A DNA stretch of 39,222 nucleotides, from positions 73,973-113,194 of the forward strand of contig JAIDCZ010000029.1 of NCBI GenBank assembly GCA_029055565.1, written 5' to 3'. Positions 16,770 through 37,913 of this stretch are shown piece by piece. How positions within the stretch are numbered: position 1 is the stretch's first letter; each line of letters opens with the position of its first letter. Made by a program: the position numbers and the translations under genes. A model generated the notes under the pieces. It had not been told where the DNA came from, did not search any database, and saw only the letters and a program-made list of their open reading frames with translations. This DNA is from Clostridiales bacterium (GTDB taxonomy: Bacteria; Bacillota; Clostridia; Christensenellales; Pumilibacteraceae).

Positions 16770-17405
16770 TTATATTTTAAGTAAATCGGAAAATTTATCG
16801 AGGCGGATATCGGTATGTTCGTAGTCGCGTGCGGTGCCTATGCCGGCGGTGGTGAACCCGCCGCTTTTGCCGGCATCAATGCCCGAGTACGCGTCCTCTA
16901 CCACAAGGCAGTCTTGCGGCGGCAAGCCTATCATTTGCGCCGCCTTTAAAAACACTTCGGGGTCGGGCTTGCTTTTTGTTATGCAATTCCCATCAGCTAC
17001 GGCGTCGAAAAAATCGCCCAAGCCTATTTGCTTTAAAATAGCGGGAGTGTTTTTGCTTGACGAGCCTATCGCCAATTTCAAACCCATTTTGCGTAGCGAG
17101 GTAAGAGTGGACAAAACATCATCATCCAAATCCTTAGGCGACATATTGTTTAGCATTTTTTTGTACATACCGTTTTTGCGTTCGGCAAGCTCAAGCTTTT
17201 GCTCGGGCGTATACACCCTATCGCTTTTTGCCAAAACGACCTTCAAGCTTTCCATTCGGCTAACGCCGCGCTGCTTCATATTATCCTCACGGTTAAAGTC
17301 CCGAATTCCCAATTCCTCCGCAAGCGCCTTCCACGCAAGATAATGGTACTCGTCCGTCGAGCAGATAACACCGTCCAAATCGAATATTATGCCATTGAAT
17401 TTCAT
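16770..17405 (-). CDS. pgmB: Beta-phosphoglucomutase
   Basis: This cytoplasmic HAD-superfamily enzyme (211 aa) converts beta-D-glucose 1-phosphate to glucose 6-phosphate, the step after an inverting GH65 phosphorylase. The nucleophile Asp9 and general acid/base Asp11 are in IIFDLDGVI. The cap-domain arginine region (MKQRGVSRMESL), Ser/Lys motifs (IGSSSKN, TKSKPDPEVF) and metal site (VVEDAYSGIDA) are all present. I chose the ATG at 17405 over a GTG at 17411 because AAGGAG is 7 nt from the ATG and would abut the GTG. The start overlaps the stop of the upstream GH65 gene as ATGA, so translation is probably coupled. It is the last gene of the long glucan operon. Pairing with GH65 is the classic arrangement of maltose, kojibiose, nigerose and trehalose phosphorolysis. 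Confidence 0.96.
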   Translation of the reverse strand: MKFNGIIFDLDGVICSTDEYHYLAWKALAEELGIRDFNREDNMKQRGVSRMESLKVVLAKSDRVYTPEQKLELAERKNGMYKKMLNNMSPKDLDDDVLSTLTSLRKMGLKLAIGSSSKNTPAILKQIGLGDFFDAVADGNCITKSKPDPEVFLKAAQMIGLPPQDCLVVEDAYSGIDAGKSGGFTTAGIGTARDYEHTDIRLDKFSDLLKI

Positions 17406-19357
17406 GTCCACTCTCCTTTTTTGCCGAAAATTGCCTTAGCCGCCATCCATGCACCGCCGCTCGCCGCGGGATGTGTGCCGCCTATGTAAACGTCTCCCGC
17501 CCACTGCTTTCCGCCGCCGCGCAAATCAATTTCCGCAGAGTCCAAAAATGCCGAATACGCGTCGTCCGGTTTTCCTATTCTGCACGCGGTAAGCGCATAC
17601 GCGCAGTGACTTAACGACGAGCCGTGTTCGGTGTACGGCAGATAAAACTCGTAGTTTTTGCGCTGTATATCTGTCGGGAATAAGTCGGGATAAAGATTAA
17701 ACAGCATTATAACGTCGGCTTGCTTTATTACTCTTGTAGCGGTGGCAACGCCGCCCGATCCGCCCCAATACTCACGCGGATGTGCAAGCCTGCCGCGAAC
17801 AGTTTCCACACTCACGTCTTCCAATCCGAAATATCCGTCAAACTGTTCTATAACGCCGTCGGCGTTGGGTTGAGGCAGGTATAGTTTTTCAACCCATTCT
17901 TTAAGCTTTTTAACGGCACTTGCCGAGTAAACGTTTTTAAACTTTTCGGCAAGCTCAACGCCGCGTTTGGTGATTTGATAGAACATATAGTTGGTGTAAG
18001 CATTATTGTTTACGCGTTCGTGATACTCGTCGGGGCCGATTACGTCAAGCAATTCGTATCTGTCTTTAATATGATTATAGTAGCTGTAAGTGCGGGCAAA
18101 CTCGGCGCATTCCAAAACGGTTTCAAGTCCGCCGTTAAGCATAAGTTTATCGTCGGCGGTGCGGTTATAGTATTCCAAAATCGCATACGCGACGTCGGCG
18201 GATATATGGATTTGCTTATCCTTAAAATACGTCCTAATAGGTCTATGTGTGAACACGTCGGTCACGTTAAAGTCCGAGCAAGCGTCGTAGCCGTCCTGAC
18301 TCTCCCATGCGTAAAACGCGCCGCCGTAGCCGTAATACTTTGCCTTTTCCTTTGCCGCAGGCAAGGTGTTTATTCTATATTTAATAAGTCTTTCGGCAAC
18401 GTCGGGTAGCGCCGATAGGTAGAACGGCAACATAAATATTTCGGTATCCCAAAACACCGCGCCCTTATACGTTTGTCCGGACAGGCCGCGTGCCGCTATG
18501 GAATAATCGCCCTTAGGCGCTATTATTAGCAAGTGATATATGCTGTAATCGAGCGCAAGCTGTCCGCGCTCGTCGCCGTCAATAATCATTCGGCAATCGC
18601 GCCACAGTTTTTTCCAAGCGCCCGCATGTTCGACCAACGCTTGATCGTAGCTTTCGTATCGTATTACTTTTTCATCGTCAACCGAAACGTAAGCAAGCCT
18701 ATCCAGCATAAAGCTTTCCCCCGCCTTGACAAATGCGGTTATTAAACCAAAGCCGTTATCGAACTGCGTGACTTCGCCGGAATACTCGCAAGCTACCCTT
18801 ACTTTGCGCCCAAGCTCCTGCGTTACGCCTGTCGCCTCGATAACGTTTTTTGTAAGCTTGGTTTTAACGTCTTTAAAGTGCGGTCCGTTAAGCTCCCAAA
18901 TATCCGTATCCACGCCCACGCGGAACACGAACAGCATATCCTTGTCGGACGTAACAACAGTGCGCGAGCAAATATTATTCTTGTTTGCCATATTGACAAA
19001 CCGCTCGGTGCGCAATGTCACCGTCGCGCCGCGCACGCTGTACGTAGTTTTACGCGAAAATATGCCGCGCGAAATATCCAAGCTCGTTTCGTGCGATACT
19101 GTATTTTCGCCGCGCACGTCGAGCGAGGTATCGCCGGCAAAGACATGCATATACAGCGGGTTAAACGCATTCACCGTTTCCCGCCACTTGCCTTGCACTC
19201 CGTCGTATACGCCAGCGATATTCAGCCCCACGCATTCAGCTTTGCCAAACTCGTCAAGCATACCGCGGTAGCCGATATAACCGTTGCCCGTCAAAAACTT
19301 ATTGCCGTTTTGTACAATGCTTTCGGGATTGAACCCGTTCTCTTTAATTTCAATCAT
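17402..19357 (-). CDS. GH65 glycoside phosphorylase, short form lacking the C-terminal domain
   Basis: This 651-aa cytoplasmic protein has the GH65 (alpha/alpha)6-barrel motifs: RGLSGQTYKGAVFWDTEIFM for the substrate pocket, FKDKQIHISADVAYAI, and LLDVIGPDEYHERVNNN with the general acid Glu444. GH65 phosphorylases split an alpha-glucoside with phosphate, inverting the linkage to give beta-glucose 1-phosphate. Family members act on maltose, trehalose, kojibiose, nigerose, alpha-1,3-oligoglucan and others; I cannot fix the specificity from sequence. The protein ends soon after the barrel (GGTHPAASGGAWMAAKAIFG). The neighbouring GH65 continues for another ~75 residues, so a C-terminal beta domain appears to be missing. 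Its start overlaps the upstream GH65 stop, and its stop overlaps pgmB, both as ATGA. Confidence 0.93.
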   Translation of the reverse strand: MIEIKENGFNPESIVQNGNKFLTGNGYIGYRGMLDEFGKAECVGLNIAGVYDGVQGKWRETVNAFNPLYMHVFAGDTSLDVRGENTVSHETSLDISRGIFSRKTTYSVRGATVTLRTERFVNMANKNNICSRTVVTSDKDMLFVFRVGVDTDIWELNGPHFKDVKTKLTKNVIEATGVTQELGRKVRVACEYSGEVTQFDNGFGLITAFVKAGESFMLDRLAYVSVDDEKVIRYESYDQALVEHAGAWKKLWRDCRMIIDGDERGQLALDYSIYHLLIIAPKGDYSIAARGLSGQTYKGAVFWDTEIFMLPFYLSALPDVAERLIKYRINTLPAAKEKAKYYGYGGAFYAWESQDGYDACSDFNVTDVFTHRPIRTYFKDKQIHISADVAYAILEYYNRTADDKLMLNGGLETVLECAEFARTYSYYNHIKDRYELLDVIGPDEYHERVNNNAYTNYMFYQITKRGVELAEKFKNVYSASAVKKLKEWVEKLYLPQPNADGVIEQFDGYFGLEDVSVETVRGRLAHPREYWGGSGGVATATRVIKQADVIMLFNLYPDLFPTDIQRKNYEFYLPYTEHGSSLSHCAYALTACRIGKPDDAYSAFLDSAEIDLRGGGKQWAGDVYIGGTHPAASGGAWMAAKAIFGKKGEWT

Positions 19358-21588
19358 AAGCTTACTGTTAAAGTATCTTTGATTTTATATTCGGTGCCGC
19401 ACACTACCGCGTCGACCACACCGCCGACAACGGAAATCGTAGCCTTTTTAGGCTCAACCGTAACGGATATATTGCTGCCCTTATAGTTGAGCTTAAACGA
19501 GTATTTTTTCCAAATTGCGGGAATGCACGGATTGATAACAAGCTTGTTGCCGTCGCTGCGCACGCCACCGAAGCCGTAAACTATATTCAGCCAAGCGGCG
19601 GATATAGATGTTGTGTGCAAGCCCTCGCACGTGTTGCGGTTGTAGTCGTCCAAGTCCAAACGCGTGGCAAAGCCGAAAAACGACACCGCCTTGTCCATCA
19701 AGCCGAGTTCACATGCCAATATCGAATGCACCGACGGCGAGAGCGACGATTCGTGTATGCAACGCGGCTCGTAATAACGGTAGTTAGCCAGCTTGCATTC
19801 CTTGGAAAAATCGCCGTTGTACAAAAACTGGAACATCAAAACGTCAGGCTGCTTTATCATATCGTTGCGGTAAATCCTATCGTAGCTCCAATGCGAGTAC
19901 AACGGAAAATCGCTGTCCGGTATGCTGTCTATATCTATATGCGGAAGATTGTAAAAACCTTCGTGCTGTTCGTACAGCAATGTTTTTTGGTCGTAAAGTA
20001 TTTTCATACTATCGGCGCAACGCTTCCACTCGTCGAGTTCGGTTTGCGATACGCCAAGCCGCGACGTCAGCTTTTGTTTATCGGGATAATCGGCTATCAC
20101 CGACAAAGTATAGTTAAACGTCTTTTTTGCCATGTAATTGGTGTACGTGTTGTGGTTGACCATCATTTGGAATTCGTCCGGCCCCATAACGCCGAAATAT
20201 CCGAACTTGCCGTCGGCGCCCCACTGTCCGCGCGTAACAAGATAGCGGCAAATTTCCACCAACATCTCTATACCCTCGCGGTACAAAAAGTAGGTGTCGC
20301 CAGAAACGTTGACGTAATGGTAAATGCCGTAGGCCACAGCGGTGGACGGCTGCATTTGTAGGCTTGCGTGCTGCCACAGGTTGCAGGACTCATGCCCGTT
20401 GATTGTGGCAATGGGATAGCACGCGCCCGCACAGTCTAATTCCTTGGCGCGGGCTTTGGCCTGCGAAAGCGTGTTGTAACGATACATCAAAAGGCACTTT
20501 GCCGCGTCCGGATTACTGAATAAATAATAGGGCAAGCAATACGATTCCGTATCCCAAAACGCCTGACCGCCGTACGCCTCGCCGGTAAGACCCTTTGCCC
20601 CAATATTGTCGGTAGGATCGGCGGCGTGGTAGGTTTGTTGAAGCTGGAATATACAAAAGCGTATGCCCTGCTGGTTTTCGTCATCTCCGACTATTTCTAT
20701 ATCCGACCTTTTCCAAAAATCCGCCCAATACTGTTCGTTGCGAGCAAGCGCGCCGTCGTAGCCTTCTTTGATTTGCTTAGACAGTTCGTCCTGCGCCTGC
20801 CGCGAACAGTCCTTGCCCGTCTTGTCCACGCACACAGCGACGAGGCGCGTAAAGGTGTATGTTTTATTCGGTTTAAGATTTAATTCAAAGCCGTGACGAA
20901 CGCACCTATCGCCCATTGTTATTTTTTGGGAATGGGCACCGCCCACCGTAGCGTCCATAAAAACGGCGGCCGACTGCGAGCTTGTTTCCGTTCCGCACAA
21001 AAGTCCGTTGTCGAATATTTTGCGTTGCTGCCAGCGCGACGGACTGCCGCCGTGCGGGTTATTAAAGTTTATCTCCGCGCTCAGCGTAAGAATGCAGCTT
21101 TTATCGGCTGTAAATTCAACCGACTGGTAAGCGCGGTGGTAGTTTTGCATATCCAAAAAACGACAAAAATTCATGGTAAGGCGCACGCCGTCCGCAAGCC
21201 AAGTAACAGTGCGAGTAAGGCGTCCGTTTTTCAGCGACAAGTTGCGCGAATAGTTTTCCACCGCGCACGACGCCATATCGAACGGCTTGCCGTTGACCGA
21301 TATTTCCATTTTCCAATAATCGGCGGCGTTCACCATAAAATGGCTTTTGGTGCTGATGCCCTTATACCCCGTTGCAAACGTGTCCGGCGAGTATTCGTAA
21401 ACGCCGTTTAAATAGCTGCCCAAAAGCGACGGCGCCGTCGTGCCCTCCTCCAAATAACCGCGACTGCCCATATATTCGTTGCCGAGCGAAAAAACAGACT
21501 CCGCAACCCTTGAAAAATCGGGCGAAAACAAATCCTCTGTAATATTCCAGCCGTCGCCGACAAAATGCTTACGTGCAGTCTTTGCCAT
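19354..21588 (-). CDS. GH65 glycoside phosphorylase, full length
   Basis: This 744-aa cytoplasmic protein has the N-terminal beta-sandwich typical of GH65 (SLGNEYMGSRGYLEEGTTAP, about residues 33-52), and barrel motifs GLTGEAYGGQAFWDTESYCL and GVMGPDEFQMMVNHNTYTN with general acid Glu472. A C-terminal beta domain is present (GGVRSDGNKLVINPCIPAIW onward). It is quite different in sequence from the adjacent short GH65, so the two probably act on different linkages or chain lengths, for example a disaccharide and an oligosaccharide. Adjacent GH65 pairs acting on alpha-1,3-glucosides (nigerose phosphorylase and alpha-1,3-oligoglucan phosphorylase) are known in clostridia. With the GH87-like gene in the operon that is a plausible role here, but it is inference. 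GAGGAT precedes the ATG; 12 bp separate it from the upstream small gene. Confidence 0.93.
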   Translation of the reverse strand: MAKTARKHFVGDGWNITEDLFSPDFSRVAESVFSLGNEYMGSRGYLEEGTTAPSLLGSYLNGVYEYSPDTFATGYKGISTKSHFMVNAADYWKMEISVNGKPFDMASCAVENYSRNLSLKNGRLTRTVTWLADGVRLTMNFCRFLDMQNYHRAYQSVEFTADKSCILTLSAEINFNNPHGGSPSRWQQRKIFDNGLLCGTETSSQSAAVFMDATVGGAHSQKITMGDRCVRHGFELNLKPNKTYTFTRLVAVCVDKTGKDCSRQAQDELSKQIKEGYDGALARNEQYWADFWKRSDIEIVGDDENQQGIRFCIFQLQQTYHAADPTDNIGAKGLTGEAYGGQAFWDTESYCLPYYLFSNPDAAKCLLMYRYNTLSQAKARAKELDCAGACYPIATINGHESCNLWQHASLQMQPSTAVAYGIYHYVNVSGDTYFLYREGIEMLVEICRYLVTRGQWGADGKFGYFGVMGPDEFQMMVNHNTYTNYMAKKTFNYTLSVIADYPDKQKLTSRLGVSQTELDEWKRCADSMKILYDQKTLLYEQHEGFYNLPHIDIDSIPDSDFPLYSHWSYDRIYRNDMIKQPDVLMFQFLYNGDFSKECKLANYRYYEPRCIHESSLSPSVHSILACELGLMDKAVSFFGFATRLDLDDYNRNTCEGLHTTSISAAWLNIVYGFGGVRSDGNKLVINPCIPAIWKKYSFKLNYKGSNISVTVEPKKATISVVGGVVDAVVCGTEYKIKDTLTVSL

Positions 21589-21600
21589 AATAATATCCTC

Positions 21601-21951
21601 TTAAATTTTTTCGTCGCCGAATTCCAGCGACATTTGCTGCATAAGTCCGATAAGGATTTTTTTTGTTAGCTTGCCCTTGGGTGAGAACACCGCAACGCCT
21701 ATGCGCGTGCCGCCGTTTTGCAGCACGATAAAAGAAACGGTCACCTCGAATTTTTCGGTCTTGGCAAACATTTCTTTAAAGTTTTCATTGACAACAAAGT
21801 CGCCGTAGCCGAGCTTGGCTAATAACTCTTTTGCTCGTTTAATGCAACTATCTACGTCGCAAGACACTTCTATCGGATGAAGTGCGCTGTTTTTGTTGTC
21901 GTCCGACGTGATAGAATAAGTTTCAAAAAACACCGAAAGACCCTTAAACAT
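21601..21951 (-). CDS. Small protein of unknown function in the glucan operon
   Basis: This 116-aa protein has no signal or membrane span. The sequence suggests a small alpha/beta fold: an N-terminal strand (MFKGLSVFFETYSIT), a helix (DSCIKRAKELLAKLGYGDFV), central strands (EVTVSFIVLQNGG and RIGVAVFSP) and a final helix (LTKKILIGLMQQMSLEFG). I do not recognise the family. AGAGGAAG lies 5 nt before the ATG. It sits 9 bp after the ABC ATPase gene and 12 bp before the first GH65 gene, so it is co-transcribed with transport and phosphorolysis genes. A cytoplasmic accessory or sensor role is possible. No catalytic residues can be named. Confidence 0.75.
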   Translation of the reverse strand: MFKGLSVFFETYSITSDDNKNSALHPIEVSCDVDSCIKRAKELLAKLGYGDFVVNENFKEMFAKTEKFEVTVSFIVLQNGGTRIGVAVFSPKGKLTKKILIGLMQQMSLEFGDEKI

Positions 21952-21960
21952 AGCTTCCTC

Positions 21961-23049
21961 TTAAATTACGTTTGTCGTTTCGGGATTGAAAAAGTGCAGA
22001 TTTTCCTCGTTGAACAAAATGGCAACTTCGTCATGCGGATGTATTTCGTTCTTGGCCGAGGTCCTGAAAACAACGCGCTGTTCCCCTATCTTGCCGTGAA
22101 GAATCAACTCGTAGCCCAATAGCTCCACTACGTCGCATTTTGTTTGAATGCTGTTGGCGGACTTTCCTTTAACAAGCTCTATGTCCTCGGGACGAATGCC
22201 GACAACGATATTTTTGCCGTCGTAATCCTTTAAGTGCTCGCACTGCGCTTTGTTCAGTTTTATGCTGAGCTCGCTTTGCTCACCTGCAAAATAGAACTCG
22301 CCGTTTTCGTATTTGCCGTTAAAGAAGTTCATTGCCGGCGAGCCTATAAAGCCGCCCACAAACATATTTACGGGATGGTCGTACACTTCCTTGGGCGTGC
22401 CGATTTGCTGAACCTTGCCATCCTTCATAACAACGATACGCGAAGCCATAGTCATAGCTTCCGTTTGGTCGTGCGTTACGTACACAGTGGTCGCGCCTAC
22501 GTCCTCGTGAATCTTGGCAATCTCCGACCGCATTTGCACGCGCAGCTTGGCGTCGAGGTTACTTAGCGGCTCGTCCATCAGGAACACTTTGGGGCGGCGC
22601 ACTATTGCTCTGCCTAGCGCTACTCTCTGGCGCTGACCGCCTGAAAGCGCTTTGGGCTTGCGTTGAAGATACGGTTCCAAGCCCAATATTGCCGCAGCGT
22701 CATGTATGCGCCTATCGATTTCGTCCTTGGGCAGCTTTTGAATTTTGAGCGCGAACGCCATGTTATTGTAAACAGTCATGTGCGGATACAGCGCATAGCT
22801 TTGGAAAACCATGGCAATGTTTCTGTCCTTGGGCGAAATGTCGTTTACAAGCACGTCGTCTATGTACAGTTCGCCGGAAGATATATCCTCCAAGCCGGCA
22901 AGCATGCGCAGCGTTGTGGATTTGCCGCAACCCGACGGCCCTACAAACACGATAAACTCTTTGTCCTTAACGTCGAGGTTAAAGTCGAATACCGCTTGCA
23001 CCTTGTTGTCGTATATTTTGTTGATGTTGACAAATTTAATAGTTGCCAT
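21961..23049 (-). CDS. Carbohydrate ABC transporter ATP-binding protein (MsmK/UgpC/MalK type)
   Basis: This 362-aa protein has every ABC ATPase motif in order: Walker [10 protein letters not shown] (37-45), the Q-loop, signature [17 protein letters not shown] (about 135-150), Walker [13 protein letters not shown], and the H-loop [10 protein letters not shown]. The C-terminal ~125 residues are the TOBE/OB domain of the MalK class ([16 protein letters not shown]). Two subunits would drive import through the MalF/MalG-type pair encoded in the same operon. In Firmicutes such an ATPase often serves several sugar transporters. Here it is inside the operon, 9 bp from the GH13 gene. AGGAG lies 6 nt before the ATG. 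The C-terminal domain is of the length that can carry regulatory contacts. Confidence 0.95.
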
Positions 23050-23058
23050 AATTCACTC

Positions 23059-24351
23059 CTACAATTTTTGTTCGATTACGATAGGCTCGTTACCTATCGC
23101 CAGCTTGCCGTCTTGTACCGTTACGGTTTTGCCCGTTATTAAATTCTTGTAATCGCCGTCTTGAAGCTTTACCCCCACCGTCACCTCGCCGTCTTCAAAA
23201 TTGAATACACCGACCGACAGGCTCTCTTTATTCGTATAGCTGCACACTGCCGTTTGCTCGCCTTGCATTACGATATCGAAAAAACCGTGCGAATAAATAT
23301 CGTGTTTTTTGATGGCGGCAAGGTTGGCGATATAAGCCGATATATCTTTTGCCGCGTCGTTAAAGCTCCACTTTACCTCGTCGATTTCAAACAAATCGTT
23401 TTGCTTATCAAACGACGTTTCGTCGCCGGCGTAAACAAACGCAGTGCCTTTTAGGTAAAAGTTGAGCGCCCACAGCATTTTCAGCTTATCGCCGCTCCAA
23501 AACTTTGCGGCGCGTTCGCGGTCGTGATTATCGAGATACCGCGCCTTGACGTAATTTATAGGATAACGGCCCTCTTGGTTAAGAACGTCCTTTAACCATG
23601 CACCGAGCGAACCACCCTTTCTTTCCACAAACGCGCTTTGCGTGTCGTGAATATCGTAAACGTACAGCAAATCGAAGTAGTTGTACGCTTCGCCGTCGCT
23701 CATTGCATTGCAGCCCAGCCTTCTAAGCTCGCGCACAAAGTTGATTTCCACCGACTCGCCGAGCATAATAAGATTGGGATTGATTTTATGTAATGCATCG
23801 ACCGCTTGCTTCCAAAATAAAGCGGGCACGAGCGAACATACGTCCATGCGGAATCCGTCCACACCTTTTTTAACCCAAACCGAAAGTATATCGATAATCT
23901 TATCGCACAACTCTTGCTTGGAGTAGTCAAGGTCGTAAACGTCACCCCAATCACCGACTTTATTCGCCGGCTTGCCGTTTACGTGATAGAACCAATCTTC
24001 GTGTTGCTGCAAAAGGACGGAATCGCGCGAGGTATGGTTAAGTACCATATCGATAATAACCTTCAAACCGCGCTTATGCGCCTCATTTAACAGATTGGCA
24101 AAATCTTGTTCCGTTCCGTTCATCGGGTCGATTTTGGTATAATCGTAAATGGCGTACGGACTGCCGACCTCGCCCTTACGGTTGACCTTACCTATCGGAT
24201 AAAACGGCATAAGGTATAGAATATCTGCGCCGAGCGCCTTTATTCTATCCAGCTGTTTGGTAACGCCGTTAAAGTCATGCTTCGGCGAAAACTGACGAAC
24301 GAATACTTGATAAATAGTCTGGTTGTTTAAGTAAGCTTTATCGCAAATCAT
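23059..24351 (-). CDS. GH13 alpha-amylase family enzyme, cytoplasmic
   Basis: I chose the ATG at 24351 (MICDKAYLNNQTIYQVFVRQ); it overlaps the upstream stop as ATGA and has GGAG 9 nt upstream. The 430-aa protein has no signal peptide. All GH13 regions are present: region I DMVLNH (101-106), region II GFRMD with nucleophile Asp170, region III MLGES with acid/base Glu199, and region IV YLDNHD with transition-state Asp277. The enzyme should hydrolyse or transfer alpha-1,4 (or alpha-1,6) glucosidic bonds in imported oligosaccharides. The short single-domain form, with a small C-terminal beta domain, resembles maltodextrin-type or oligo-glucosidase GH13 members; the subfamily is uncertain. It would trim alpha-1,4-linked parts that the GH65 enzymes cannot attack. 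Confidence 0.94.
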   Translation of the reverse strand: MICDKAYLNNQTIYQVFVRQFSPKHDFNGVTKQLDRIKALGADILYLMPFYPIGKVNRKGEVGSPYAIYDYTKIDPMNGTEQDFANLLNEAHKRGLKVIIDMVLNHTSRDSVLLQQHEDWFYHVNGKPANKVGDWGDVYDLDYSKQELCDKIIDILSVWVKKGVDGFRMDVCSLVPALFWKQAVDALHKINPNLIMLGESVEINFVRELRRLGCNAMSDGEAYNYFDLLYVYDIHDTQSAFVERKGGSLGAWLKDVLNQEGRYPINYVKARYLDNHDRERAAKFWSGDKLKMLWALNFYLKGTAFVYAGDETSFDKQNDLFEIDEVKWSFNDAAKDISAYIANLAAIKKHDIYSHGFFDIVMQGEQTAVCSYTNKESLSVGVFNFEDGEVTVGVKLQDGDYKNLITGKTVTVQDGKLAIGNEPIVIEQKL

Positions 24352-29863: not shown

Positions 29864-29866
29864 GAT

Positions 29867-31249
29867 TTACCCCTTGACCGATCCGCTCAAACCTTCTACG
29901 TAGTATTTGTTCAATGCTATAAAAAGTATCGAGATCGGAACGGCTACGATTACCGCGCCCGCGGCAAAGCTGGTGTACCAACTGTTTATGTAGCTGTTTT
30001 GAAGCATCATATACAATCCGAGCGCAACGGTGTACGAGCTGTAATTGTCACCCATTATTACGCTGGCGAATATATAATCGCCCCACGGCGCCATAAACGA
30101 AGTAAGAACGGTATAGATAAGAATAGGCTTGGCAAGCGGCAAAATAATTCGGAAGAATATTTGCAGCTGGCTTGCTCCGTCTATCATAGCGGCCTCGTCG
30201 ATATCTTTCGGAATAGTATCGATAAAACCCTTAACTATGTAATACCCTGCCGCCGAGCCGCCCGAATAACACAGTATAAGCGCAAACAGCGACTGACTGA
30301 GCCCTATGCCTTTGATAATGTAGTAAATAGCTATCATCGACATAAAGCCGGGGAACATACCCATAATAAGGAAGCCCATAATGAGTTTCTTTTTGGACGC
30401 GAAGTTGAACCTCGACAGCACGAAGGAAATCATTACGATTATGCAGGTCGAAAGAACGCAGGTCGCCGCCGACACCAAAAGTGTGTTGCCGAACCACCGC
30501 CCGAATTGGAATATGGACGTGTCGGTAAAAAGCCTTATATATGCGTCAAACGACCATTTGTCTGGTATAAAGCTGTCTGTGTAAAATCCACGCTCCGCGC
30601 GGAACGAGGTGAACACGATAAACAGCAACGGAAACAGCCAAATAATGCTTAACGTGATTAAGACTATATAGCTTGCCGCAAGCCGACCGCGCTTAAAGAA
30701 TAGAATCGCAAGGATAAAATCCGCAATCAACAGCGCAAAGTAGGCAAACCCCACTTGGCTGAGCATAAACTTGCCGTCCAGCCCTGCGCCTTCCAATCCC
30801 GATTTGTAGCAAAGCATGGTGGAAAGCAGCATATAGCTTAAAACAAAGTACAAAATACCGAGTATCTTGCTGACAACGTAAATATGCTTTTTGTTTTTAA
30901 ACGCAAACTCTTCTACAAGAAAGAAAATAATACCCGCTATCGGCAAAACGGCACACAGCAAATCGGCAACGGCTATATAGGTAAGCTGACCGTTATTGTG
31001 TCCGGAAATAAGTCCGAAAAATCCGAATAGCGTACTGCTCTTTCCGTCGTTAAGCTTGACGATTGGCAACGATACTGCAAGTATCAGCATCAGCAGCGCC
31101 AAACCCCAAAAGAAGAATTTTTTAAAATACTTAAATCCGCGGGAGTTTACTAACGCGCCCAATTTAATGCTAAGCGGGCGGAAAAACTCTTCTATCTTTT
31201 CAAAGGCTTTAACAAAAGCCGATTTTGCTTTACTAAAAACTGCCTTCAT
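29867..31249 (-). CDS. MalG-type sugar ABC permease with extra N-terminal membrane region
   Basis: This 460-aa protein has a C-terminal ~270 residues typical of the MalG/CUT1 permease: six spans and the cytoplasmic EAA loop EAAMIDGASQLQIFFRIILP, which docks on the ATPase. The N-terminal ~190 residues are unusual: a basic amphipathic start (MKAVFSKAKSAFVKAFEKIE) and about four extra hydrophobic segments, whereas MalG-type proteins are usually about 280 aa. The gene overlaps the end of the MalF-type gene by 17 bp. AAGGAGG lies 16 nt upstream, too far for a normal site, so translation may depend on coupling. It forms the membrane channel with the MalF-type protein for alpha-gluco-oligosaccharide import. 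The next gene begins 3 bp after its stop. Confidence 0.93.
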   Translation of the reverse strand: MKAVFSKAKSAFVKAFEKIEEFFRPLSIKLGALVNSRGFKYFKKFFFWGLALLMLILAVSLPIVKLNDGKSSTLFGFFGLISGHNNGQLTYIAVADLLCAVLPIAGIIFFLVEEFAFKNKKHIYVVSKILGILYFVLSYMLLSTMLCYKSGLEGAGLDGKFMLSQVGFAYFALLIADFILAILFFKRGRLAASYIVLITLSIIWLFPLLFIVFTSFRAERGFYTDSFIPDKWSFDAYIRLFTDTSIFQFGRWFGNTLLVSAATCVLSTCIIVMISFVLSRFNFASKKKLIMGFLIMGMFPGFMSMIAIYYIIKGIGLSQSLFALILCYSGGSAAGYYIVKGFIDTIPKDIDEAAMIDGASQLQIFFRIILPLAKPILIYTVLTSFMAPWGDYIFASVIMGDNYSSYTVALGLYMMLQNSYINSWYTSFAAGAVIVAVPISILFIALNKYYVEGLSGSVKG

Positions 31250-32948
31250 TTTTAAACGACGACGACCTCCTTAATACTATTAGCGACAATCCCGCCGAAA
31301 TCAAGAATATGATTATACCGATTGCGGAAGCGTAGGAATAATCCCTATTGTCAACCGTCAGCTTGTACAGCCACGTAACAAGCAAGTCCGTTCCGCCCGC
31401 GCCCTTAAAGTTGTCGAGCGACGCAGGGCCGCCGCCGGTAAGGAAGTATATAACGTTAAAGTTGTTTATGTTGGAAATGAACGCATTTATAAGGTACGGC
31501 GTACAAACAAACATAATGTACGGCAAAATAATTTTACGGAAAACCATAAAAGGGCCTGCGCCGTCTATCTTTGCGCTTTCAAACAAGTCGGACGGAATGT
31601 TCAGCAGTATGCCCGTAGTAATGAGCATGGAAATAGGCACGCCTATCCAAAGGTTGACTATAATTACCGTCGCCCTCGCCCACGTGGTATCAGTCAAGAA
31701 TGGCAGCGGTTCGGAAGTAAATCCGTACTTCATAAGCAGCATATTTACCACGCCGTCGCGTTGCAGCATAGTGCCTATGCTGAGCAGCGAAATAAACGAC
31801 GGGATAGCTATGGTAAGTACAAAGATCGTGCGGAAAATCACCTTGCCCTTTACCCTATTGTTCTTGATAAGCATGGCAAGCCCCATGCCGCCGAAGAAGC
31901 ATGTAAACGTGGAGAAAAACGCCCAAACAAGCGTCCACAAAAGCAGCCGCCAAAAGGTTGACGCAAAGTTGGCGTTCTGTCCGAACAAATAGAAAAAGTT
32001 TTGAAAACCCACCCAATCGAAAAGCTGTCCGGGCGGTTGATGGTTCGCGTCGTAATTGGTAAACGCGATAAGTATCATGTAGATAAGCGGAATAATAGTG
32101 AATATAAGCACACCGGCAAGCGGGATTATAAGCATGATTATGTACAACCGCTTGTTGGCAAACGATTTAACAAATGCCTTAAAGCTGTATTTTTCGTTAT
32201 TCCTAACCGCTTCCGAAAGCCTGAGATTGGACTTGAACGCGAACAGATAGAACAATACCGCAAGTGCAATTACGGCAAGCGTAATAACGCCGGACAACAG
32301 CATTGTCATAGAATTGTCGCCCTCCACCGTGTGCCAATACCCTTCGGCGTCCTGATACCGACCTTGCACAACAGTGCCGAGCGTGCAAAGATTGATAATG
32401 CTCTTTACGCCATAAAAGCCCATAAACACAAAGAACGCAATTTCGACGAGCAAAAACATTATGCCCTCGAAGTATCGCTTGTTCTTGATATGCGACACGC
32501 CCAAAACAAACAAGGACGCTTTTTCAAAGCCGTCGTGTTCGTTCCAAAAAAAGTGGTTCTTTTCGTATTTGATTACGGCCTCTGCATTCTTTTTTGCCTT
32601 ACCGTTTTTGGCAAGCCATAAATCCTTTGTGGAAGAAACCGTTTTTGCAACCTTGTTTTGCGCATTATCGCCGTCCGATATAACAAGCCTAAACTTTTTC
32701 TTTTGCTGCTTGATATCTTTGGGCACGGCGATTTTTACGGTGCACCAACCGTCGCCGTCATCCTCTATAATCGGATTACCCACTTCCACGGGAGAATCGC
32801 CGATACATTCTGTATCGACTTTAAGCTCATCTCCCCAACTATAGTTTTTGTGAAGGTGAATAGTAACCGTTTTTGTAGGGCTTTCTTGCGCCACGGCGTC
32901 CGCCGTTTCGTCTTGCTCTACGTTAAGGTTTTCTTGTTCCTTATTCAC
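31233..32948 (-). CDS. MalF-type sugar ABC permease with N-terminal CBM-like domain
   Basis: Translation starts at a GTG (32948) with GAGGAG 6 nt upstream, and the GTGA overlap joins it to the end of the lacI-type gene. The 571-aa product has the MalF/CUT1 permease core (about residues 270-560) with the EAA loop SAKIDGAGPFMVFRKIILP. Before it come two extra spans (about 163-190 and 215-240). The first ~125 residues are soluble and beta-rich: TVTIHLHKNYSWGDELKVD, DGDGWCTVKIAVP and KFRLVISDGDNAQN match the order of strands in CBM25/26-type starch-binding modules. The side of the membrane it faces cannot be proven. With the predicted spans a cytoplasmic N-terminus is likely. It forms the channel with the MalG-type protein. 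Confidence 0.93.
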   Translation of the reverse strand: MNKEQENLNVEQDETADAVAQESPTKTVTIHLHKNYSWGDELKVDTECIGDSPVEVGNPIIEDDGDGWCTVKIAVPKDIKQQKKKFRLVISDGDNAQNKVAKTVSSTKDLWLAKNGKAKKNAEAVIKYEKNHFFWNEHDGFEKASLFVLGVSHIKNKRYFEGIMFLLVEIAFFVFMGFYGVKSIINLCTLGTVVQGRYQDAEGYWHTVEGDNSMTMLLSGVITLAVIALAVLFYLFAFKSNLRLSEAVRNNEKYSFKAFVKSFANKRLYIIMLIIPLAGVLIFTIIPLIYMILIAFTNYDANHQPPGQLFDWVGFQNFFYLFGQNANFASTFWRLLLWTLVWAFFSTFTCFFGGMGLAMLIKNNRVKGKVIFRTIFVLTIAIPSFISLLSIGTMLQRDGVVNMLLMKYGFTSEPLPFLTDTTWARATVIIVNLWIGVPISMLITTGILLNIPSDLFESAKIDGAGPFMVFRKIILPYIMFVCTPYLINAFISNINNFNVIYFLTGGGPASLDNFKGAGGTDLLVTWLYKLTVDNRDYSYASAIGIIIFLISAGLSLIVLRRSSSFKNEGSF

Positions 32949-33979
32949 AGTACGCTCCTCGTTGAATTTCTTATTATTAACTCCGACTTAATAACCGTTT
33001 TTTCCGCTTTATGCGTATTGGGATTGTTTATTTTATCAAGCAAAATTTTGGCGCACAAACATCCCTTTTCAAAAATATTTTGACGAACGGTAGTGAGCTC
33101 GGAAGAAATGAAGTTGAGCATTCTAATATCGTCGTAACCGACGATGGAATAGTCGTCCGGCACTTTTTTGCCGCGCTCGGCTATGCCGCGCACAATGCCC
33201 AAGGCGGTAATATCCGCCGTACACATTACGGCCGTCACGGGCAGCTTTTCGTCCACAATCCTTCGCCCAAACTCCGCACCGCCCCTAAAATCCGTAATCG
33301 TTCTGTAAACAAACTCTTCGGAAACGCCGTACTCTTTAAGCGCCCTTTTGTAGCCTTGATATCGCTCGGCGTCTACGCCGACTAAGGTTACGTTGTTGCA
33401 AACAAACGCTATCCTTTTGTGTCCCAAATCGAGCAAGTGCTTGACTGCCGCATATACGCCGTCGGCGTCGTCGCTTAGTATTACGTCGCGGTCGGTGTTC
33501 CAAACGTTGTAGTTATCCACAAGCACCGTGGGCACGTTTAGTTTGCCAAGCTGATCGTAAAGACTGTCCGATAGATTTCCCAAATCGATCAATCCGTCAA
33601 GGCTTCGGTTCTGTATCCACTCCAAATACTTGAAGTTGTCGTCCATGCCGCGAACGATACATTCGTATCCGTTGTCCAAAAGCACCCTATGTACGCCGTC
33701 TATAAACTCATGGTAAAATGGGTTGTTTTCCAAAAGATCGGACTGCTTTGCGCCAATCTCCAGCATAGGCAAACACACGCCTATAAGCATCGACTTGCCC
33801 GTAACAAGGTTACGCGCCACCATATTGGTGCGGTAGCCGGTGTCGTTCATGCACTCCAACACCTTGGCACGCGTCCGCTCGGAAACCTTATCCAGCCTAC
33901 CGTTTATCACGTTGGATACCGTCGCGGGAGATACTCCCACCATTTTGGCTATATCGTATATACTGACTTCTTGTTTCAT
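32945..33979 (-). CDS. LacI-family transcriptional regulator, first gene of the glucan operon
   Basis: This 344-aa protein has a classic LacI N-terminus: helix-turn-helix and hinge (SIYDIAKMVGVSPATVSNVI, then NGRLDKVSERTRAKV). The C-terminal ~280 residues form the periplasmic-binding-protein-like sugar-sensing and dimer domain (AVMCTADITALGIVRGIAER, IVGYDDIRMLNFISSELTTV). It probably senses an alpha-gluco-oligosaccharide and represses the neighbouring units. The candidate operator is the perfect palindrome at 37019-37036 beside the binding-protein gene. The ATG at 33979 has no Shine-Dalgarno site, and a -10 box ends 6 nt before it, so the message may be leaderless. It is joined to the MalF-type permease by a GTGA overlap and so is co-transcribed with the genes it likely controls. 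Confidence 0.95.
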   Translation of the reverse strand: MKQEVSIYDIAKMVGVSPATVSNVINGRLDKVSERTRAKVLECMNDTGYRTNMVARNLVTGKSMLIGVCLPMLEIGAKQSDLLENNPFYHEFIDGVHRVLLDNGYECIVRGMDDNFKYLEWIQNRSLDGLIDLGNLSDSLYDQLGKLNVPTVLVDNYNVWNTDRDVILSDDADGVYAAVKHLLDLGHKRIAFVCNNVTLVGVDAERYQGYKRALKEYGVSEEFVYRTITDFRGGAEFGRRIVDEKLPVTAVMCTADITALGIVRGIAERGKKVPDDYSIVGYDDIRMLNFISSELTTVRQNIFEKGCLCAKILLDKINNPNTHKAEKTVIKSELIIRNSTRSVL

Positions 33980-33985
33980 AAGTAA

Positions 33986-34014
33986 ATTATAACAGTTAGA
34001 TGTCGAAAAATCAA
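33986..34014 (-). promoter_or_regulatory. Promoter of the lacI-led operon, predicted leaderless
   Basis: TTGATT (34014-34009), a 17-bp spacer and TATAAT (33991-33986) on the minus strand. The ATG begins at 33979, about where transcription should start. AGTAAAT (33981-33987), the half-site of the malE operator, overlaps the -10, so autoregulation is possible. Confidence 0.7.
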
Positions 34015-34057
34015 ATTAACAATACAATTAGCACGCAATATGCAGCTTTCGGAAAAG

Positions 34058-34095
34058 TAAGGAGCGCCCGTGGAGGAAGGATCGAGCGCTCCTTA
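34058..34095 (-). terminator. Terminator of the malE-CBM lipoprotein unit
   Basis: TAAGGAGCGC (34058-34067) pairs with GCGCTCCTTA (34086-34095). On the minus strand a short CTTTTCC follows. It lies 24 bp after the stop codon at 34119 and separates this unit from the lacI promoter. Confidence 0.75.
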
Positions 34096-34118
34096 TTTCC
34101 GTTAGTGATTAAATCTGT

Positions 34119-35690
34119 TTAAGCGTTAGGGTTGTTAACCGTTGCACCGGTACTGCTAATCCAAACGCCCGCCGCGTCAAGAGTGAAAGTACCGACCACT
34201 CTACCAAATCCGGCTTCTGTATTATTGCTTTCATCGCAGAATATGAAATTAACCGTTTTTCCAATATATGCACTCGGAACATTCTCAAAAGTTACCGAAT
34301 ACCAACCGTCGCCTTCAGCGGTCATAGCTGTGTTACCCCACCCACCGCTAAGAGCGCCGACATCATCACCATAAGCATGCAATAACAACCTGCCGGTAAG
34401 ATTCCACTCGTGTGTAGTCGTATTTTCAGTAGGCTTTTGGAAATATATTTTTAATGAAACAGTATCGCTTGGATCGACATTGTTAAGTTCATCATACTTG
34501 GCTTCTGCGGAAGCAAAATCAGCGAAACCGCCTTCGCCACCGAGCGAAATAAAGTAAAGACCTTCCGGATCTTCCGTATATTTAGGCTTGTTAGTTCCGT
34601 CAACATAAATATTTAGGTTTATGCCGTTACCGGTTGTTAATCCTTTATCGGTACCGAACGAATAGCTGAACCAACCGGCGTGTCCGGAAACCGCAGTCAT
34701 AACCGATTCGTCATTAAATTCGCCGCCAAAGTTACCCCACACGCTTATCGTTACGCTTGTTGCGTCGGGAGCGTACATATAAATCGTATACGAATGTGCC
34801 TTGGGAACATCATTTTCGTCATCTACTGCCGCCGACTGGCTGTTGAATACTTTGCCCTTATTGTTTATATAAATGTCGGTAGCGGGAACAGCGTAACACT
34901 CGAATCTTATTTTAGTTGCTTCCGAACTATCATCATCATTCTCATCAAAAACTATAACGTGACGCCAGATAATTTCATCGGGCCATGCTACGTCGTACGT
35001 GTACCAACCGTTACCCGCGTCAGTCATGCGAGCGCCGCCTTCACCAAAACCCTGTACAACGGTGGATTCGCTGTCCGACTCATCGGCACCATAAGCGTGT
35101 ATACCTATCCAACTGCCTTGCCAATCGGACGGCTTGTGGAAATAAACCTTAACGGTATCGGTCGTGGGTGGGTCGACGGTGCCACCGACGTCGTTCCACT
35201 GCGCATATATTGTACCGTTTGCCGTGAATTCGGTGCTTGTTTCGACTTTGGTTCCACCCGTCGCCGCGGTATACCAACCCTTAAACGTTTTGTTTGCGGG
35301 CGCGGTAGGCGCATTCGGCAACTGCGCGAGCTTGCCGTTTGCGGTATTTACTTTGGTTACTGAACCAAGCGTGCCGCCGTTTGCGTTAAGCGTTATTTCA
35401 TATACGCCGGTCGTATCGTCGTCGCCGCCTTGCTCGGGCATAGTAGCGCCGCAAACGTCGCACTTGCCGTCTTTAAGGTTTACGTCTATATGCGGCTCGG
35501 CGTCCTTTTTCTCGCCATCCTCTTTGCAAACCATCCAGTGGCTCGTCGGGCCGTAGTCCCGCTCCCATTTGTGGGTGTGTCCGGTATTACCGTCATCGCC
35601 ACCGCAAGCGATAGCGCCAAAGCCGACGGTTGCCAATGCCGCGCTTGCCAATAACACGGTCATTATTTTTTTGAACTTGTTTCTTCTCAT
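34119..35690 (-). CDS. Surface lipoprotein with InlB repeat and three starch-binding (CBM26-like) modules
   Basis: Two adjacent ATGs (35693, 35690) exist; the second has AGGAG at 7 nt and is preferred. The 523-aa product has a lipoprotein signal (GAIAC, Cys29). A Cys/His-rich segment follows (HTHKWERDYGPTSHWMVC ... GKCDVCG), then one InlB-type repeat (about residues 95-165). Three CBM25/26-like modules lie at about 180-285, 300-395 and 410-515 (VKVYFHKPSDWQGSWIGIHA with NGWYTYDVAW; YTIYMYAPDATSVTISVWGN; LKIYFQKPTEN with GDGWYSVTFENV). Modules of this type bind starch. It should help hold alpha-glucan or pass oligosaccharides to the binding protein encoded just upstream (gap about 66 bp, same transcript). 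Confidence 0.87.
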   Translation of the reverse strand: MRRNKFKKIMTVLLASAALATVGFGAIACGGDDGNTGHTHKWERDYGPTSHWMVCKEDGEKKDAEPHIDVNLKDGKCDVCGATMPEQGGDDDTTGVYEITLNANGGTLGSVTKVNTANGKLAQLPNAPTAPANKTFKGWYTAATGGTKVETSTEFTANGTIYAQWNDVGGTVDPPTTDTVKVYFHKPSDWQGSWIGIHAYGADESDSESTVVQGFGEGGARMTDAGNGWYTYDVAWPDEIIWRHVIVFDENDDDSSEATKIRFECYAVPATDIYINNKGKVFNSQSAAVDDENDVPKAHSYTIYMYAPDATSVTISVWGNFGGEFNDESVMTAVSGHAGWFSYSFGTDKGLTTGNGINLNIYVDGTNKPKYTEDPEGLYFISLGGEGGFADFASAEAKYDELNNVDPSDTVSLKIYFQKPTENTTTHEWNLTGRLLLHAYGDDVGALSGGWGNTAMTAEGDGWYSVTFENVPSAYIGKTVNFIFCDESNNTEAGFGRVVGTFTLDAAGVWISSTGATVNNPNA

Positions 35691-35717
35691 CATAAATCTC
35701 CTATGATTTTATTTTTC

Positions 35718-35732
35718 GTCGGCCTTTCCGAC
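35718..35732 (-). other. Intercistronic hairpin after the binding-protein gene
   Basis: GTCGG (35718-35722) pairs with CCGAC (35728-35732) between the binding-protein stop (35757) and the next start. No T-run follows on the minus strand. It may protect the upstream part of the message and raise binding-protein levels, as is common for first genes of sugar ABC operons. Confidence 0.4.
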
Positions 35733-35756
35733 TTGGTTTTATTTTATTGTTGCAAA

Positions 35757-36986
35757 TTAGCCCTCTATGGCGGTTACCATTTGATTGAGCTTCGTTTGAA
35801 GATTTGTTTTTGTTATATCGCCGTTGAGCAATTCGGTGCCGAATGCTTTTACCGCGTCCCAGTAGCCCGTAAGCTTACTTGTTTTGGGCTGAACGGTGCA
35901 CACCTTTTCCTGTTCGAGAGCAGCCATAACCGCTTGGTCGTTTTGTACGGATTCAAGAGCAAGCAACGCCTTAATGGTGGGCGCGTCACCGCTGGTGTTG
36001 TAGCGCATTGTTTGGCAAGTAGCATTGCCAAGCCATTCGGCAACAAGGTTTGCAAGCTTGGGATTTTTGGTAGCACTGTTAACTCCGTACGCTTTGTAGT
36101 CGCCGAAGTTTGCCATATCGCATTCTTTGCCGCCGATATTCACCTTGGGCATGGGAACGGCTCTATATTTATCACCGAGCTGGCCTTTAATATCTTTGGC
36201 GCTCCAAGTACCCGAGCAAAGCGCCGCAAGCGTTTTATTCTTTAACGCGTTGCCGTCCGAGCCCGAACCGTCCGCAGGAAAGAATTTGTCGTTGTTTACC
36301 AAATCTATAAGGTATTCGCCTACTTTGTAGCCGTCCGCATTGTTATAGTTGCATTTGATAGTGCTGGGCGTGGGCGCGGAAATCGCATTTTCCTGTGTAA
36401 GGAAGAATGTGGAAAGATACCAAGAATCGTTTACCACGATAGAAAAGTTTTTTACGCCATCGGCTAAATCCTTAGCCATCATAGTATCGAGAGACTGAAC
36501 TTCGGTTTCGGTGTAGAAATCCGAATTGTAATACATAATGAACGTGTTGAGCGTAACGGGTATTGCATACACCTTGTTGTCGAGCATTATGGACTCGACG
36601 GCGTTTTCCGTGTACATAGCATTAAGCTCGGTCATATTCACATTTAAAGGATTGATAAGACCAGCGCTCGTAAGCTCGGTAATACCACCGCTCGGAAAAA
36701 GAAATACGTCCGCCGCCGCTTTATTATCCTTTTGCAGCTGAGTAATAGAGTTGTCGACACTCATTACCTTATACTCAAACTTAACGTCCTTGTAATCGGG
36801 ATACTCTTCCTTGAACGCGTCAATCATTTTGGGAAGATTTACCTGCTCTTCCTGCGGCGCCCAAATAGTCATTTTGTTGGCGCTGCTACCGCCGGCGCCG
36901 TCACCGCAACCGACTAAAAGTCCCGTCATACCCGAAAACGCAACGCATCCGGCAAGCGCCAATGCGGCTATCCGTGCTTTTCTCAT
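35757..36986 (-). CDS. Sugar ABC transporter substrate-binding lipoprotein (MalE-like)
   Basis: I chose the ATG at 36986 (MRKARIAALAL...), with GGAGG upstream; the longest frame would begin inside the -10 region of the promoter. The 409-aa product has a lipoprotein signal (LVGC, Cys27) and is a class-1 extracellular solute-binding protein (MTIWAPQEEQVNLPKMIDAF at the mature N-terminus; KVYAIPVTLNTFIMYYNSDF is the typical ligand-cleft stretch). It captures oligosaccharides outside the membrane and delivers them to the MalF/MalG-type channel encoded in the neighbouring operon. It has its own strong promoter with an operator at the transcription start, so is probably the most tightly induced gene here. 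Substrate is inferred from context: alpha-gluco-oligosaccharides. Confidence 0.94.
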   Translation of the reverse strand: MRKARIAALALAGCVAFSGMTGLLVGCGDGAGGSSANKMTIWAPQEEQVNLPKMIDAFKEEYPDYKDVKFEYKVMSVDNSITQLQKDNKAAADVFLFPSGGITELTSAGLINPLNVNMTELNAMYTENAVESIMLDNKVYAIPVTLNTFIMYYNSDFYTETEVQSLDTMMAKDLADGVKNFSIVVNDSWYLSTFFLTQENAISAPTPSTIKCNYNNADGYKVGEYLIDLVNNDKFFPADGSGSDGNALKNKTLAALCSGTWSAKDIKGQLGDKYRAVPMPKVNIGGKECDMANFGDYKAYGVNSATKNPKLANLVAEWLGNATCQTMRYNTSGDAPTIKALLALESVQNDQAVMAALEQEKVCTVQPKTSKLTGYWDAVKAFGTELLNGDITKTNLQTKLNQMVTAIEG

Positions 36987-37018
36987 ACATATTCCTCCAA
37001 TAAAAGACATAAAACCGA

Positions 37019-37036
37019 TAGTAAATCGATTTACTA
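37019..37036. promoter_or_regulatory. LacI-family operator palindrome
   Basis: TAGTAAATCGATTTACTA is a perfect 18-bp palindrome with the central CG typical of LacI/MalR operators. It covers the bases just after the -10 box of the malE-type promoter, where a bound repressor would block transcription. The likely ligand protein is the LacI-type product encoded at 32945-33979. Confidence 0.85.
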
Positions 37037-37041
37037 AACTC

Positions 37042-37070
37042 ATTGTACTACTTTAAATATAGTTTGTCAA
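37042..37070 (-). promoter_or_regulatory. Strong sigma-A promoter of the binding-protein unit
   Basis: TTGACA (37070-37065), a 17-bp spacer and TACAAT (37047-37042) on the minus strand. The operator at 37019-37036 begins 5 bp downstream, covering the transcription start. Confidence 0.88.
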
Positions 37071-37088
37071 TACATTTTTTTCAAATTT

Positions 37089-37121
37089 TTTAGTAAACAT
37101 TTAGTAAACATTTAGTAAACA
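37089..37121. repeat. Three perfect 11-bp tandem repeats upstream of the malE-type promoter
   Basis: TTTAGTAAACA is repeated at 37089, 37100 and 37111. Each unit carries TAGTAAA, one half of the palindrome at 37019-37036, and the spacing is about one helical turn. They may be auxiliary sites for the LacI-type protein. Confidence 0.8.
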
Positions 37122-37830: not shown

Positions 37831-37871
37831 AAGCACTCAATTTGTTCCTCTTGGGTTCAAATTGGGTGCTT
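37821..37871 (-). terminator. Terminator of the DUF5677-like gene
   Basis: AAGCACTCAATTTG (37831-37844) pairs with CAAATTGGGTGCTT (37858-37871), 13 matches plus one G-U. On the minus strand TTTTTATATTTT follows the stem. It lies 42 bp after the stop codon at 37914. Confidence 0.85.
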
Positions 37872-37872
37872 G

Positions 37873-37906
37873 TGGCGGAGCAGTCGCAACCTAAAACGAA
37901 TAATAT
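37873..37906 (+). repeat. Right copy of a motif also found beside the hairpin array at 16.46 kb
   Basis: The sequence starts GGCGGAGCAGTCG and ends AAAACGAATAAT. At 16464-16494 the same orientation reads GGCGGGCTAGTCG then AAAACGAATAAT. About 25 of 32 positions match, including 12 in a row. GGCGGGCAGTC is found a third time at 16683. It may be an attachment-like or element-end sequence. Confidence 0.45.
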
Positions 37907-37913
37907 AATCATT

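Follow-up and report, generated by a model that had tools for sequence, protein, structure and literature searches.

The stretch of DNA considered here (the window: 39,222 nucleotides that form the end of contig C22 in the 1.64 Mb, 76% complete genome of an uncultured Clostridiales bacterium) carries at positions 16770-37043 a set of 13 genes, all on the minus strand. As judged from the protein families and their arrangement, these genes very probably encode a system in which an alpha-1,3-linked (perhaps mixed alpha-1,3/1,4) glucan is first cut extracellularly, and the fragments are then taken up and broken down by two phosphorylases. Alpha-1,3-glucan is a polymer of fungal walls and dental plaque. 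All the components that a sequence-only reading of the window had named lie on this strand where that reading had placed them, with family searches that are far above chance.

In the order of transcription, the first gene (35757-37043) encodes an ATP-binding cassette (ABC) sugar-binding lipoprotein (PF13416, 1.3e-27), which probably starts at the ATG at 36986 rather than at 37043 because this ATG is preceded by GGAGG. It is followed by a lipoprotein that combines a carbohydrate-binding module of family 26 (CBM26) with a List_Bact_rpt domain (34119-35693; PF16738, 4.2e-09; PF09479, 3.9e-12; lipobox-like start read by eye), a LacI-family regulator (32945-33979; PF00356, 2.7e-14; PF13377, 3.8e-30), and permeases of the MalF type (31233-32948; PF00528, 2.9e-18) and the MalG type (29867-31249; PF00528, 3e-15), for which PRK10999 MalF and, with a truncated query, PRK10998 MalG are the best models, each scoring below its own cut-off. 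Next come a 1384-residue enzyme of glycoside hydrolase family 87 (GH87; 25709-29863), a CBM26 protein with a signal-like N-terminus and a C-terminal membrane anchor (24348-25709; PF16738, 1.5e-15; hydrophobic segments 7-25 and 426-444), and a GH13 alpha-amylase-type enzyme (23059-24405; PF00128, 8.5e-41, and PF18612; PDB entry 3DHU at 1.4e-85) in which no hydrophobic signal segment was found and which probably begins at a start codon downstream of the called GTG (24405), given that the called open reading frame (ORF) overlaps the CBM26 gene. The remainder comprises a UgpC/MalK-type ABC ATPase (21961-23049; NF008653, 493.5 bits against a cut-off of 432), a 116-residue ORF without a Pfam match (21601-21951), which the sequence-only reading had passed over, two GH65 proteins, namely GH65-A (744 residues, 19354-21588; PF03632 at 7.7e-108, PF03636 and PF03633), a probable alpha-1,3-oligoglucan phosphorylase, and GH65-B (651 residues, 17402-19357; PF03632 at 3.2e-86, no match to PF03633, the C-terminal GH65C domain), a probable nigerose-type phosphorylase, and finally pgmB for a beta-phosphoglucomutase of 213 residues (16770-17411; TIGR01990 equivalog, 223 bits against a cut-off of 189.4). 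Signal peptides and anchors were judged throughout from hydrophobic segments and by eye.

The beta-helix domain that the sequence-only reading had assigned to GH87 indeed belongs there: both domains of the family profile are matched (CatAgl_D1, PF22815, 116.2 bits, 1.8e-33; CatAgl_D2, PF22816, 49.7 bits, 3.3e-13; cut-offs 27), and the six PDB sequences that match GH87 at E <= 0.001 are, every one of them, named alpha-1,3-glucanase (best 5ZRU, 6.5e-53). Furthermore, D1115, D1142 and D1143 of the window enzyme align with the columns of D1045, D1068 and D1069, the catalytic residues of AglFH1 (PMC10696023), and these three aspartates are kept in 29 of 30 GH87 domains in an alignment of the window, the compared loci and three PDB chains, the exception being a fragment at a contig end. 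Near its two ends the protein has hydrophobic segments, 7-25 and 1359-1377, which could serve as signal peptide and membrane anchor, respectively. Its long N-terminal part yielded a single weak match to a ricin-type lectin family (RicinB_lectin_2, 28.5 bits against a cut-off of 25.6), and a structural model of this part (758 residues, 6 sequences, mean predicted local distance difference test score (pLDDT) 67.7) gave fold matches with E-values down to 1.9e-14 and template modelling scores below 0.3 by query length. The best of these matches, such as fascin and lectin subunits, are beta-trefoil proteins; for the N-terminal modules we would claim the trefoil class and nothing finer.

In a tree of 28 of the 30 aligned domains (two fragments of under 400 residues were dropped), the window GH87 groups with that of L058, the locus of an uncultured member of the Clostridia described below (support 100/99), and next with those of two related genomes, G047 and G025 (100/98). 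The GH87 proteins of these two kin are of about 550 residues, without a visible signal peptide (L014:626-2257; for G025 the place is L008), and the G025 gene precedes pgmB and a GH65-B gene, suggesting a cytoplasmic GH87. That the GH87s linked to GH65 form a single clade found no support: the linkage takes three changes on the tree, at least two of them forced by well-supported branches, which is no better than with shuffled labels.

Among PDB entries, GH65-A comes closest to 6W0P, which was deposited as a kojibiose phosphorylase (760 bits; the match to maltose phosphorylase reaches 430); this 6W0P structure is entered as unpublished in PMC8950772 and is presumably the uncharacterised human-microbiome GH65 that, according to PMC8626586, is known from the PDB alone. 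For GH65-B, the glucosylglycerol phosphorylase 4KTP ranks first (413 bits), with kojibiose phosphorylase second (298 bits). Published specificity motifs, read at positions 64/392/394/402/416/585 of CsKP, are EEAPxx for kojibiose phosphorylases, KV[MF]NES for maltose phosphorylases and, as an example from one tested enzyme (ChGP), FAITQA for alpha-1,3-oligoglucan phosphorylases (PMC8537180). GH65-A agrees with the last of these at F64, A392 and I394, and among its 86 relatives in the CsKP alignment (85 distinct) F or Y occupies position 64 in 83 and A or S occupies position 392 in all. GH65-B reads E-E-Q-S-Y-S at the six positions; all of its 76 relatives (75 distinct) have E64, W391 and E392, and 75 have F417 where CsKP has T. 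The kojibiose motif EEAPxx and the triad W-E-T at 391/392/417 thus belong to neither window enzyme (GH65-B has EEQSYS and W-E-F, GH65-A has F-A-I), and the same holds for the maltose residues K64, V392 and M/F394 and for the TRIGPP motif of a trehalose phosphorylase. Accordingly, the pair does not appear to be of the maltose or trehalose type, in line with the sequence-only reading, and GH65-B, by these residues, is in a uniform group distinct from the kojibiose and maltose types. The phosphate site of GH65 consists of Lys, His and two Ser, and the general acid is Glu (PMC8626586); transferred by us from the positions given there for another enzyme, these are K330, H675, S631, S632 and E483 of CsKP. 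In GH65-A and all 86 relatives the site and the general acid are complete, and GH65-B has the Ser-Ser pair, the His and the general acid. GH65-A and GH65-B are the only two GH65 matches in the incompletely assembled genome. GH65-B stops 14 residues past the motif that marks the end of the catalytic domain, and 7 of the 66 proteins holding that motif stop after 14-25 residues and thus lack the C-terminal domain (17402-19357; L059-L064 and L067).

Could the neighbourhoods of related genes help in understanding what the pair does? In a scan of named genomes with the GH65-A alignment, the best 80 of 401 relatives were followed (those of Lachnoclostridium phytofermentans and C. hydrothermalis being outside those 80), their surrounding genes being called by comparison with the window proteins; many flanks end at contig ends, with at least 2.4 kb downstream of GH65-A available in 67. 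GH65-B is present at 62 of these loci and directly follows GH65-A at 56, and the other genes recovered are pgmB (48), MalF-type (62) and MalG-type (71) permeases and LacI (23). GH87 is near GH65-A at four loci which, by their record titles, belong to Clostridia (L058), Chloroflexi (L078), Clostridiales (L108) and Planctomycetes (L126). Over 510 residues the L108 enzyme, which is encoded on the same strand as GH65-A, shares 77% identity with AglFH1; this ties the GH65-A group to an alpha-1,3-glucanase whose activity is known. L058 (CANRJR010000026.1, a metagenome-assembled genome of uncultured Clostridia, isolate Lapin-024) has the same order as the window, MalF-MalG-GH87-CBM26-GH13-MalK-116-residue ORF-GH65-A-pgmB, with identities to the window proteins of 86% for MalF, 56% for GH87, 68% for GH65-A, 72% for GH13 and 36% for the CBM26 protein; the small ORF between MalK and GH65-A is 55% identical. 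Unlike the window, L058 has no GH65-B between GH65-A and pgmB.

A search among the relatives of the host detected a GH87 domain in 3 of 151 genomes (one of them the host genome), and the 19 other genomes listed for the same genus all lack it; the gene is therefore patchy among kin. Across the class, a GH65-B relative at 1e-100 is found in 15 of 391 genomes and GH87 above the cut-off in 5, with G170 only marginally over it; the match in one further genome, G345, falls below. With the own genome excluded, three of the four GH87 genomes are among the 14 with GH65-B out of 390 (hypergeometric p 1.5e-4). The neighbourhoods of 12 GH87-positive genomes, G170 excluded, show GH65 close to GH87 in five: besides the window genome, G025 has GH65-B and pgmB nearby, G845 combines GH87 with GH65-A, GH65-B, pgmB and permease genes, G413 has MalF, MalG, GH87, GH65-A and a split GH65-B, and G530 has LacI, GH31, a binding protein, MalF, MalG, GH87 and GH65-A, after which the contig ends. 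In G413 the GH65-B relative (L039:5322-7530) is spread over two open frames that overlap, owing either to decay into a pseudogene or to an error in the sequence. In the GH87 loci of G247 and G530 there is a GH31 gene beside LacI and no GH13 match, which at the level of the GH31 family resembles the published cluster of L. phytofermentans (PMC9061262).

The upstream end of the gene set carries what looks like its control region. A sigma-70-like promoter, TTGACA-17-TACAAT (37042-37070, minus strand, 11 of 12 matches), is the top of 19 sites in 33900-39222, where shuffled sequence gave 14.8 expected for a looser scan. Next to it is a perfect 18-bp palindrome (37019-37036), a candidate LacI operator. 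When up to 3 mismatches are allowed, the window holds no second such site (0.03 expected), and neither does the assembled genome at up to 2. This position suits the LacI regulator, which presumably binds there. Three tandem 11-bp repeats AAATGTTTACT lie upstream of the promoter (37092-37124, minus strand), and pgmB is followed by a hairpin with a T-rich tail (16652-16674) that is probably a terminator; both features were read from the sequence itself.

Taken together, these observations suggest the following scheme, in which the genes would form a polysaccharide utilisation locus of the Gram-positive type for an alpha-1,3-linked glucan. The membrane-anchored GH87, with its beta-trefoil modules, would cut the polymer outside the cell, aided by the CBM26 proteins that would hold alpha-glucan at the surface; the binding lipoprotein and the MalFG-MalK-type ABC transporter would take up the oligosaccharides. 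Inside the cell, GH65-A would phosphorolyse the longer alpha-1,3-oligoglucans and GH65-B nigerose, yielding beta-glucose 1-phosphate that PgmB would convert to glucose 6-phosphate, a route that would cost less ATP than hydrolysis followed by glucokinase. In the cytoplasm, GH13 may cleave alpha-1,4 links that interrupt the imported pieces, and LacI may repress from the promoter palindrome until the sugar is present. Extracellular cutting, ABC import and internal phosphorolysis are well supported by inference from the families and the gene order. What is directly observed are the gene families, the catalytic residues, the hydrophobic segments at the protein ends, the order of the genes, their recurrence in further genomes and the palindrome; the substrate, the localisation of the proteins, the division of labour between the two GH65 enzymes, the role of GH13 and the regulation we infer. 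This scheme is preferred because GH87 and GH65-B co-occur beyond chance; because GH65-A is followed by GH65-B at most of the loci compared, like Cphy_3314 and Cphy_3313 of L. phytofermentans; and because of the GH87 domains with their catalytic aspartates, the GH65 residues, the partial agreement with FAITQA, the TIGR01990 match and the unique palindrome. As to the proposal of the sequence-only reading that the substrate is an alpha-1,3 or alternating glucan, the conserved pairing and the neighbourhoods speak for a locus of alpha-1,3-oligoglucan phosphorolysis; a pure and a mixed glucan are both compatible with a GH87 clade that includes none of the three characterised enzymes compared.

Several observations weigh against this scheme. 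The window GH87 is only 33% identical to Agl-KA, 28% to Agl-ST and 28% to AglFH1, and in the tree its clade stands apart from all three of these characterised enzymes. GH65-A departs from FAITQA with N at 402 and S at 585, and position 416 is not alignable. GH65-B and all 76 of its relatives have Arg at the presumed phosphate-site Lys, K330 of CsKP; 4KTP, itself a phosphorylase, also has Arg in this column of the alignment with GH65-B and, besides, is described as hydrolysing beta-glucose 1-phosphate (PMC3899277). GH65-B is probably a nigerose-type phosphorylase, an assignment made by synteny, pairing and exclusion: GH65-B adjoins GH65-A in the window as the consecutive tags Cphy_3313 and Cphy_3314 would suggest, and GH65-A is itself only a probable oligoglucan phosphorylase. 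At 76 of the 80 GH65-A loci, many with cut flanks, no GH87 is shown, and L058, the closest whole locus, has no GH65-B within its 20.9 kb, a stretch that leaves the genes upstream of MalF outside. The co-occurrence in the class weakens to p 0.003 when one genome per genus is counted, G247 and G413 being of one genus. Finally, within the stretches examined no GH65 lies near GH87 in 7 of the 12 genomes: G047, where GH87 sits on short contigs; G247, with one copy at a contig end and another without GH65 nearby; G855, with permease genes alone beside GH87 on a 10-kb contig; G414, with GH65-B on a different contig; and G554, G597 and G746.

In the alternative that fares best, the locus is in fact directed at a fungal-wall glucan with mixed alpha-1,3/alpha-1,4 links (nigeran, or pseudonigeran containing 1,4 spacers), with GH87 acting like a mycodextranase, CBM26 binding the 1,4 stretches, and GH65 and GH13 attacking the 1,3 ends and the 1,4 links, respectively. 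We consider this a serious candidate that falls somewhat short of being probable. Mycodextranases belong to GH87 (PMC13421300, PMC10696023), GH13 and CBM26, families of the alpha-1,4 type, are part of the packed operon and recur in L058, and the GH87 loci of G247 and G530 have GH31 and no GH13 match; however, CBM26 is also present in the related genome G025, with no GH13 match in the 40 kb covered, and both families could simply serve starch. A more specific and more tentative version, which we regard as rather doubtful in its entirety, is a system specialised on glucan of the nigeran type, with alternating alpha-1,3 and alpha-1,4 links, in which an anchored GH87 of a new clade and CBM26 modules binding a nigeran-type polymer rather than starch would be joined inside the cell by the phosphorylases and GH13 alternating between linkages, with related loci assembled independently in several phyla from different GH87 lineages and the same GH65 pair. 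That the target is a bacterial alpha-1,3/1,6 polymer of lactic acid bacteria, such as mutan or alternan, is unlikely: a GH87 mutanase degrades the biofilm of Streptococcus mutans (PMC13421300), and the record of L058, the closest of the named loci, has Lapin in its title (presumably for rabbit, and so perhaps from a gut), but among the Pfam matches of the operon there is no dextranase-family domain (GH66, GH49), even if alpha-1,6 links are in principle within the reach of a GH13. General scavenging of starch or glycogen, in which GH87 would open minor alpha-1,3 parts and GH65 would act mainly on maltose or kojibiose, could draw on the starch-type families CBM26, GH13 and the MalFGK-like transporter, but is quite improbable given that the published maltose and kojibiose motifs (PMC8537180) are found in neither enzyme, that a signal-like segment is missing from the operon's one GH13, so that no secreted amylase is seen there, and that GH87 is found together with the GH65 pair more often than chance would give.

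Some features of the locus and of its surroundings touch on other matters. The MalF-type permease has an N-terminal extension of about 160 residues (32475-32948), its first membrane segment being 163-181, and a low-confidence single-sequence model (pLDDT 53) places strands between residues 24 and 103. The extension has no Pfam family, and BLAST against the ORFs of the compared loci gave no match to it at 0.01, the start of the L058 MalF lying outside its stretch. A CBM26-like domain suspected there by eye was abandoned: Pfam gave nothing, and the model matches, all with E above 0.001, are mostly immunoglobulin domains among 50 rows. Elsewhere, L085:14324-16084 encodes a single protein of 586 residues that reads as a beta-phosphoglucomutase followed by a MalK-type ATPase, which would fuse two steps of the pathway, and MalK matches of 595-616 residues in L093, L104 and L113 may be the same fusion. 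Outside the locus, at 3349-10568 of the window, are a 1553-residue protein with a List_Bact_rpt domain and a 767-residue protein that resembles a lipoprotein, contains an HExxH stretch and matches no Pfam family.

How does the locus compare with known systems? The claim that its combination of genes had gone undescribed was too strong. In L. phytofermentans, the cluster of Cphy_1874, a GH65 nigerose phosphorylase, has GH87, GH31_u1, an ABC transporter and LacI nearby (PMC9061262), and the consecutively tagged Cphy_3313 and Cphy_3314 have been characterised as a nigerose phosphorylase and an alpha-1,3-oligoglucan phosphorylase (PMC8950772). Compared by description, the former cluster shares GH65, GH87, the ABC transporter and the LacI regulator with the window, whereas the window has two GH65 enzymes, GH13 and CBM26 proteins, and no GH31 match by Pfam among its 13 locus ORFs. 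The latter pair, compared in the same way, is likewise made of two different GH65 enzymes for alpha-1,3-glucosides; the window differs in having GH87 in the same operon and a GH65-B without the C-terminal domain. The window GH87 shares the catalytic D1, the beta-helix D2 and the three aspartates with Agl-KA (5ZRU), Agl-ST (7C7D) and AglFH1 (6K0M), and may differ from these enzymes in its long N-terminal array and C-terminal membrane anchor. In Prevotella melaninogenica, a putative mutan polysaccharide utilisation locus includes GH87, GH97 and GH99 (PMC13421300); it is like the window in placing GH87 in a proposed utilisation locus and unlike it in its Bacteroidota-type uptake and its hydrolases, GH65 being unmentioned in the main text of that paper, whose authors state that, to their knowledge, no GH87-containing utilisation locus has been experimentally characterised.

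Thus, the proximity of GH87 to GH65, ABC transporter and LacI genes in L. phytofermentans is already known, and so is its pair of nigerose and oligoglucan phosphorylases. What the present analysis adds is that GH87 shares an operon with both GH65 enzymes, that GH13 and CBM26 stand where GH31 is found in G247 and G530, that the GH87 is anchored and has a lectin-like array at its N-terminus, and the recurrence of such loci in several phyla with GH87s that are not one clade. In the literature searched, which consisted mostly of partial texts and left out subscription papers, we found neither an operon with both GH65 enzymes, GH87, GH13 and CBM26 nor this recurrence. The locus and its relatives supply testable sets of enzymes and suggest a function for two widespread groups of GH65, and they suggest that some uncultured Clostridia may feed on alpha-1,3-glucans of fungi or bacteria by way of phosphorolysis.

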